64,000 nucleotides of DNA. It comes from Altererythrobacter xiamenensis (GTDB lineage Bacteria; Pseudomonadota; Alphaproteobacteria; Sphingomonadales; Sphingomonadaceae). The notes under the pieces were generated by a model that saw only the letters and a program-made list of their open reading frames with translations, was not told where the DNA came from and did not search any database. Position numbers and translations under genes: made by a program. This document shows, piece after piece, positions 5,611 through 7,132 of this stretch. Numbering within the stretch: the first letter of the stretch is position 1; each line of letters starts with the position of its first letter. The stretch covers positions 868,001 to 932,000 of the forward strand of contig NZ_FXWG01000002.1 of the NCBI RefSeq assembly GCF_900177715.1, in the 5' to 3' direction.

Positions 5611-5716
5611 GGGGGGCGCTTTGGCTTGTCAGGCTAGCCGCGTGGAACCAGCTTCTCCACCAGCGCCCGAAGTTCGTTAGCGCGGCACGCCACACGGATT
5701 AAGAATCCGCAACCCC

Positions 5717-5743
5717 GTCATCCTGAACTTGTTTCAGGATAAC
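5717..5743 (+). repeat. 27-bp inverted repeat, left copy, framing GIY-YIG gene
   Basis: The stretch is an exact reverse complement of 6050-6076. Inside it ATCCTGAA and TTCAGGAT form an 8-bp stem with a 5-base loop, so each copy can itself fold into a REP-like hairpin. Confidence 0.9.
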
Positions 5744-5762
5744 GCCCCTCTACGCCCGCTGC

Positions 5763-6059
5763 ATGGCCAAGGAACCCTGCGTCTATATCCTCGCCAGCGG
5801 CAGGCGGGGCTACATCTACATCGGCGTGACCTCCCACGTTCCCGGACGCCTCTGGCAACACCGCAATGATGTGTTCGACGGCTATGCCAAGCGCCGCAAT
5901 TGCAAGCGGCTGGTGCGGATCGAGACGTATCCGACGATGGTGGAGGCGATCGCGCGCGAGAAGCAGTTGAAGAACTGGCATCGACAATGGAAGATCAACC
6001 TGATCGAGGGGGACAACGGCGAGTGGCGTGATCTGGCGGTGGAGATGGGGTTATCCTGA
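5763..6059 (+). CDS. GIY-YIG nuclease-domain protein
   Basis: This is a stand-alone 98-residue GIY-YIG domain of the YhbQ/UvrC-N type. The motif appears as VYILASGRRGYIYIGVTS (GIY..YIG positions about 7-22), with RLWQHRN (catalytic Arg and His region) near 29-35, KRLVRIETYPTMVEAIAREKQLKNW (the conserved Glu-bearing helix) and WKINLIE. Members nick or cut DNA. The gene is framed by perfect 27-bp inverted repeats, and its TGA stop lies inside the right-hand repeat, so gene and repeats look like one unit. This resembles the REP-associated transposase arrangement but with a different nuclease. Confidence 0.9.
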   Translation: MAKEPCVYILASGRRGYIYIGVTSHVPGRLWQHRNDVFDGYAKRRNCKRLVRIETYPTMVEAIAREKQLKNWHRQWKINLIEGDNGEWRDLAVEMGLS

Positions 6060-6076
6060 AACAAGTTCAGGATGAC
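6050..6076 (+). repeat. 27-bp inverted repeat, right copy
   Basis: The stretch is the exact reverse complement of 5717-5743. It overlaps the last ten bases of the GIY-YIG gene, supplies its stop codon, and runs into the 47-bp tandem array. Confidence 0.9.
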
Positions 6077-6191
6077 GTTTCTCGAAGCGAGTTCGCAATC
6101 TCGTGACACAAGTTCAGGATGACGTTTCTGGAAGCGAGTTCGCGCTGTGGTGACACAAGTTCAGGATGTCCCGAAGCGAGTTCGGCAGGAC
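6061..6191 (+). repeat. 47-bp tandem repeat, about 2.8 copies
   Basis: Units are at 6061-6107, 6108-6154 and a shortened one at 6155-6191. Each begins ACAAGTTCAGGAT and carries GAAGCGAGTTCG; the first two share GACGTTTCT and end in GTGAC. The unit head is half of the flanking REP-like palindrome, so the array seems to have grown from the right end of the GIY-YIG cassette. Confidence 0.85.
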
Positions 6192-6940: not shown

Positions 6941-6983
6941 TTGTGTCAAGTTTGTTGGAATGGGTGGCGCGCCGAAGCGTCTC

Positions 6984-7003
6984 CCCTCCCGCCTGCGGGA
7001 GGG
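6984..7003. repeat. GC-rich hairpin of intergenic repeat
   Basis: CCCTCCCGC and GCGGGAGGG form a 9-bp stem followed by GCTTGGGGGTGGGC. This C- and G-rich signature is familiar as a dispersed intergenic element in Erythrobacter-type genomes. No T-run follows, so it is not a classical terminator. Confidence 0.45.
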
Positions 7004-7132
7004 CTTGGGGGTGGGCGATTTTTTCGCGCTACCGCTCCGCTACTTGAGCGCGTTTTTCGCGTCGATTTCGAGGCACCGAAAGCGAAATCGAACGTTGGTA
7101 TGGTGAGAGCATCAAACGAGAGGAGCAACCCT

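Follow-up and report, generated by a model that had tools for sequence, protein, structure and literature searches.

Site-specific single-stranded GIY-YIG nucleases, named Ssn, are reportedly associated with NTS repeats in Neisseria; the study, said to have appeared in Nature Communications in 2025, reportedly deals with a cutter that affects natural transformation. On the side of repeats, the closest described elements are the CGTC REPs, which comprise the families CGTC-1 to -4, with neisserial dRS3 included, and occur mainly in Alphaproteobacteria, according to the accessible portion of the survey by Di Nocera et al. (2013, PMC3733652). The same portion gives them an 8-9 bp stem, a short loop and mostly a CCA tail, with dimers as the prevailing arrangement; it places REPs frequently downstream of genes, links those of the GTAG class to RAYTs, and reports for the CGTC repeats neither an association with transposase genes nor a dedicated transposase (PMC3733652). 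The term GIY-YIG has 0 occurrences in PMC3733652; none of the matches listed from the open-licence literature linked GIY-YIG genes with REPs, and no co-mention of GIY-YIG and ‘repetitive extragenic palindromic’ was found in open-licence texts. The maker of the CGTC REPs is left open in the accessible part of the 2013 survey (PMC3733652), and the nuclease described below may be the missing partner enzyme.

The locus in question lies in the window, i.e. the whole 64,000-nt stretch of Altererythrobacter xiamenensis DNA that was analysed, and has the following features:

5716..6077, + strand: whole repeat-bounded cassette, 362 bp
5716..5746, + strand: left REP-like hairpin with CGTC tag (CGTCATCCTGAACTTGTTTCAGGATAAC...), its CGTC end being the outer one
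5763..6059, + strand: GIY-YIG nuclease gene, 98 aa, assigned from PF01541, alignment and AlphaFold2 model
6047..6077, - strand: right hairpin, inverted relative to the left one, contributing the TGA stop of the gene
6057..6168, no strand: 47-bp tandem array, 2.4 copies, beginning within the right hairpin

The two arms (5716-5746 and 6047-6077), each 31 nt long, are inverted relative to each other and 97% complementary, with a perfect inverted run of 28 bp (5716-5743/6050-6077). A preliminary description of this DNA had reported perfect inverted repeats flanking the gene, correctly so, but its length of 27 bp was slightly short. Both arms fold as DNA hairpins, at -7.4 (left) and -7.7 kcal/mol (right), with z values of -5.76 and -4.72, respectively, and none of 200 shuffles folding equally well, which bears out the REP-like hairpin proposed for each copy. 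As also described beforehand, the stop codon of the gene (6057-6059) is located inside the right arm, and the 47-bp array (6057-6168; 90% matches over 2.4 copies) starts from within it. In the further array units the outer half of the hairpin is better kept than the inner half; for 49 nt around one of these units, 191 of 200 shuffles fold as well. The neighbours of the cassette encode EthD, weakly HTH-like and S30AE/HPF proteins. At 6979-7016 the window contains a GC-rich palindromic stretch, another dispersed repeat, which many congeneric genomes match at 90-97% over 35-40 bp.

The window protein carries a GIY-YIG domain (PF01541, E = 1.8e-14, 54.2 bits against a cut-off of 22.6). In an alignment of 53 proteins, all residues invariant among homologues (Y19, G21, T23, H33, L50, K70, R74, N85, W88 and D90) are found in it, in addition to Y8, R29 and E66; we take Y8, Y19, G21, R29, E66 and N85 to be the catalytic GIY-YIG residues. 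Its AlphaFold2 model has a pLDDT of 94.9. Among PDB entries, the UPF0213 protein 1zg2 matches best by sequence (E = 0.00098); it is also the best match by fold (Foldseek E = 8.3e-4), where UvrC and Slx1 match more weakly; 1zg2 is like the window protein in fold, but only 28% identical to it in the fold alignment. Judged by sequence, i.e. by its domain and putative catalytic residues, the window protein is a member of the GIY-YIG superfamily. The window genome (G000) has two matches to PF01541, namely this gene and a 725-aa open frame that is probably UvrC.

Homologues were present in 138 of 199 family genomes, with up to 12 per genome, in genome sets that hold one genome per species. We inspected 132 family loci, comprising 30 initial ones (the window's included), 100 further ones and two from congeners (L073, L088), with a few loci at contig edges skipped; they represent the better-scoring homologues and not a random draw. 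A gene was considered framed if the best ungapped inverted match between its 250-bp flanks scored at least 14. This applied to 119 of the 132 family homologues versus 1 of 396 shuffles and, among further named homologues, to 54 of 76 and, outside Sphingomonadales, to 36 of 48. The 76 named loci were taken from the best 80 of at least 575 relatives, after removal of one short flank and three duplicates of family loci, and the best-scoring ones belong mostly to Sphingomonadales. With duplicates out, framing was detected in 172 of 206 real genes versus 1 of 332 dummy genes placed at these loci. Framing by chance was rejected on the strength of these flank shuffles and dummy-gene controls.

Framed loci are distributed among Alpha-, Beta- and Gammaproteobacteria, with one each in Mariprofundia, Planctomycetota, Nitrospirota and Ignavibacteriota. 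A qualifying inverted repeat was absent in 13 of 132 family and 22 of 76 named homologues; at the same threshold, no framing was seen in either of the two Chloroflexota loci or in the Myxococcota, Vibrio and unplaced Deltaproteobacteria loci, and some of the 13 sub-threshold family loci have a hairpin on one side only. The preliminary description had held that orthologous loci with the gene but no repeats would tell against it: all four genomes with the window lineage (G000, G121, G242 and G249) have repeats, and the exceptions are the 13 sub-threshold loci among the 132 wider homologues. A simple hairpin finder run on the 132 loci detected hairpins on both sides in 91, on one side in 20 and on neither in 21, and several of the loci negative by this finder carry long TTGCGAG-type repeats. 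Where a hairpin was found on each side, the CGTC ends of the nearest hairpins were outermost in 64 of 91 loci.

Long TTGCGAG...GCAATCCAG repeats (L149, L165, L175 and L183) accompany one nuclease clade, with 10 loci and one tree change. Carriage by phages was rejected, since no tblastn match at E 1e-5 was obtained in 50,697 phage records. The plasmid-filed records CP090106.1, NZ_CP104127.1 and NZ_CP119140.1 have chromosome-like sizes of 2.2-3.7 Mb.

The hairpins were classified by stem and loop, and 119 of the 132 loci, with one class on both sides, were kept and 13 dropped. On the protein tree, which is based on 97 columns and has weak resolution, hairpin class changes 16 times as compared with a shuffled mean of 63.6 (0 of 200 shuffles as low). 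The nearest protein from another genus predicted the class in 103 of 119 cases, the chance level being 0.25 as a baseline from the sum of class frequencies; classes E (3 of 9), G (1 of 2) and H (0 of 1) were poorly predicted. In the 25 genomes with at least two classes, proteins from other genera predicted the class for 50 of 57 genes and pairs from the same genome agreed in 14 of 92 instances; because other-genus proteins predict the class and same-genome pairs mostly disagree, the hairpin goes with the nuclease and not with the host. Cognate pairing of nuclease and hairpin is thus well supported. Residues 71 and 73, placed between two helices by the model, share the highest information with hairpin class, an association that is in part shared descent. 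The common hairpin form is CGTCAY - stem - loop - stem - ATCCA, and TCCA is the commonest tail among family homologues. In the genus of the window, the tail is ATAAC in the window lineage (4 of 4) and TCCA in the ruvAB genes (8 of 8), and G249 has both forms.

That these are ordinary intergenic hairpins, such as terminators or mRNA ends, with coincidental framing, is extremely improbable. REPs do often lie downstream of genes, as the accessible part of the survey states (PMC3733652), and the right copy ends the window gene, but such a reading is contradicted by the shuffle and dummy-gene controls, by the preferred CGTC-out orientation and by the way hairpin class follows the protein.

Copies of the hairpin exist beyond the cassette. 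With a tolerance of 3 mismatches, its 19-nt core occurs four times in the window (mean of 0.00 in 100 shuffles) and nine times in the 3.08-Mb genome, the four in the window included. Three core copies outside the window have 0, 1 and 2 mismatches; the remaining two matches, with 3 mismatches each, are the partner arm of a dimer and a probable chance match. These copies form a single hairpin at C5:165016 and dimers at C3:341784 (second arm identified by eye) and C3:773396/773456, so that the repeat is not restricted to this locus, and the single and paired copies anticipated in the preliminary description do exist, both in this genome and, as exact-pattern class-A hairpins, in 94 of 199 family genomes. 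The latter amount to 1600 in total, with 4 in G000 and a maximum of 199 per genome; the control counts listed for the exact pattern are zero.

The surplus of class-A hairpins, counted as those beyond two per labelled class-A gene, has a median of 11 in the 45 genomes with a labelled class-A gene, of 1 in the 35 genomes with only other labelled classes and of 0 in the 61 homologue-free genomes, many genes being unfetched and hence unlabelled. Two or more class-A hairpins are found in 9 of the 61 homologue-free genomes, one of which holds 71 (assembly 86% complete). Matches to the exact class-F hairpin were obtained in 5 of 199 genomes. Four of these together have 8 matches, 7 of which flank the F gene; the remaining genome, G114, has 10 matches and no labelled F gene, and of its five homologues only one was fetched. 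Since nearly all class-F hairpins lie next to an F gene or belong to a single genome, hairpins are not multiplied by the nuclease alone, and the idea that hairpin number simply follows from the gene is countered by this distribution.

We also considered spread of the repeats by a RAYT/Y1 transposase, with the nuclease as a mere bystander. GTAG-class REPs are linked to RAYTs in the accessible text of the survey, but the same text describes CGTC repeats as free of any association with transposase genes (PMC3733652). In a search with the single profile PF01797, Y1_Tnp was detected in 31 of 199 genomes and not in G000; it showed no association with class-A hairpins (Fisher p = 0.43), 1355 of 1600 of which are in genomes without it. 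RAYT mobilisation of these hairpins was therefore rejected on account of the missing association, and we regard this explanation as very unlikely.

The history of the unit can be followed at orthologous sites. We have taken 50 regions from 61 genus genomes that are flanked by genes presumed to be ruvA and ruvB, their proteins being recognised by sequence. The GIY-YIG gene is located between the two in 10 of the 50. G225, G230 and G236 have the order hairpin-gene-hairpin, with about 6-7 bp between its end and ruvB, and the hairpin core in ruvA-ruvB units starts 24-27 bp past the last codon of ruvA. At the same position as the cassette, G215 has a hairpin dimer alone; G214 has an empty site with 6 bp from stop to start, G232 a dimer plus gene with the left repeat shifted, and G201, G199 and G229 the gene plus a third repeat. 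Among the 40 gene-less regions, one is empty, one holds a class-A dimer, 34 are without a class-A hairpin, and most contain other inserts.

Spacing between ruvA and ruvB in the 50 congeners (L287-L295, L297 and L303-L342) ranges from 6 bp to >2.4 kb, with many different inserts. This intergenic region is a variable spot within a conserved gene pair.

Around HPF, where synteny rests on DNA matches, the window lineage occupies three or four positions in four congeners. At the position following HPF, the unit is present in G249 and absent in G121 and G252, although an unrelated repeat has been rearranged at this site as well. No clean empty site corresponding to 5716-6077 of the window was found in congeners, the EthD/HTH/HPF neighbourhood being variable. 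The preliminary description had called for empty orthologous sites: gene-less positions exist in congeners (ruvAB, after HPF), but none is clean at the position of the window. At the congeners' sites, the unit is absent from orthologous positions and its edges coincide with the repeats, and we consider the presence and absence of a repeat-bounded unit at orthologous sites to be well supported. Next to HPF, an unrelated repeat has opposite orientations in G249 (L088 4697-4816) and G252 (L091 2636-2754).

In Sinorhizobium, a related GIY-YIG gene is situated between hflX and mazG (L282, L285) among repeat dimers, presumably RIME-like, whose number varies between strains and among which the gene stays. 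The hflX-mazG locus of Sinorhizobium M103 was rejected as a candidate empty site: it is shorter and differs in the number of repeat dimers, but the gene is still there.

On the ruvAB tree the gene has a scattered distribution (9 changes, with 269 of 500 shuffles giving no more), but the eight nuclease proteins of the main ruvAB set form a cluster (3 changes, with 0 of 500 shuffles giving so few). Taken together, this fits an old residence with many losses, and old residence with recurrent loss is no less likely than recurrent insertion at ruvAB. Across the family, ruvA or ruvB adjoins the gene in 20 of 132 loci from 17 genera. In 17 of these loci the gene lies between both, and in three the fetched stretch has one of the two; 19 loci carry class-A hairpins and one is unlabelled. 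The gene is antisense to ruvAB in 19 of these 20 loci, or in 23 of 27 if seven further named loci are included and duplicates removed.

Such residence, with its antisense orientation and clustered proteins, also favours a resident, non-mobile gene that encodes a host-serving cutter of single-stranded DNA, acting for example in natural transformation or repair, with target hairpins kept nearby and differences between genomes arising through homologous recombination, import and loss. The homologue of N. gonorrhoeae, presumably the published Ssn, points in the same direction: it is 53% identical to the window protein and likewise flanked by inverted repeats of the same class, although in their best-matching pair the CGTC ends face the gene, and its family reportedly modulates transformation. 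A gene that never moves is harder to reconcile with the gene-less dimer at the exact cassette position in G215, with one protein lineage at three or four positions near HPF, and with up to 12 homologues per genome and more than one hairpin class in 25 genomes. We regard this alternative as a serious one, somewhat short of even.

The reading we prefer, and consider probable, is a two-part system that pairs a small GIY-YIG endonuclease with its cognate CGTC-tagged hairpin and that genomes acquire and lose as one REP-bounded unit. Two inverted hairpins with their CGTC ends outermost bound the unit; hairpin - nuclease gene - hairpin is its gene-bearing form, gene-less dimers and single hairpins are the others. 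The nuclease may recognise and nick its own hairpin when this becomes single-stranded during replication, transformation or repair, and such cutting, in combination with repair by the host or with homologous recombination among the copies, may help to spread or preserve hairpins.

We infer movement because the presence of the unit and its positions differ between genomes; similar traces would be expected after loss of the unit or after recombination among the repeats. Neither a target-site duplication nor a donor-acceptor pair was seen at the compared loci, so that transposition is not demonstrated, and active transposition by the nuclease is put forward as a hypothesis. Of the mobile or formerly mobile unit with a nuclease in the transposase role, as originally suggested, the framing, the dispersed copies and the gene-less orthologous sites were thus found, but not nuclease-driven movement. 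More tentatively, and with somewhat less than even confidence, the CGTC REPs might be the terminal hairpins of widespread minimal mobile units moved by GIY-YIG nucleases, with hairpin-nuclease-hairpin as the autonomous and gene-less dimers as the non-autonomous form, a code partly read by residues 71/73 and an old ruvA-ruvB home in Sphingomonadales. If this is true, a class of repeats and a family of enzymes would be linked to each other and to REPIN-like dynamics without a classical transposase. Thanks to the match of nuclease lineage and hairpin type, the question can be addressed with oligonucleotides and small purified proteins, and the ruvAB regions offer a natural comparison of empty, dimer and gene-bearing states.

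As regards known systems, the window nuclease is probably a member of the Ssn family, in which a small GIY-YIG protein is reportedly combined with a repeated target, as here. The CGTC REPs, as far as the accessible text describes them, fit the framing hairpins in outline (tag, short hairpin, several copies, dimers), the classes found here being set beside CGTC-1 to -4 by description. A CCA tail is usual there, though not universal, whereas the window lineage ends in ATAAC, and the CGTC REPs are described in that text without a partner enzyme, whereas here a nuclease gene sits between such repeats. With the REPtron/REPIN-RAYT system, in the accessible accounts of it, the unit shares a small nuclease gene between inverted REPs, gene-less dimers elsewhere and several element-specific pairs per genome. 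REPtrons combine an HUH Y1 nuclease with GTAG hairpins, whereas GIY-YIG is combined with CGTC hairpins here; defined by the HUH Y1 nuclease, the window unit is not a REPtron, its protein being GIY-YIG and G000 having no Y1_Tnp match. Its architecture, with cognate inverted REPs around a nuclease gene and gene-less copies elsewhere, is nevertheless REPtron-like.
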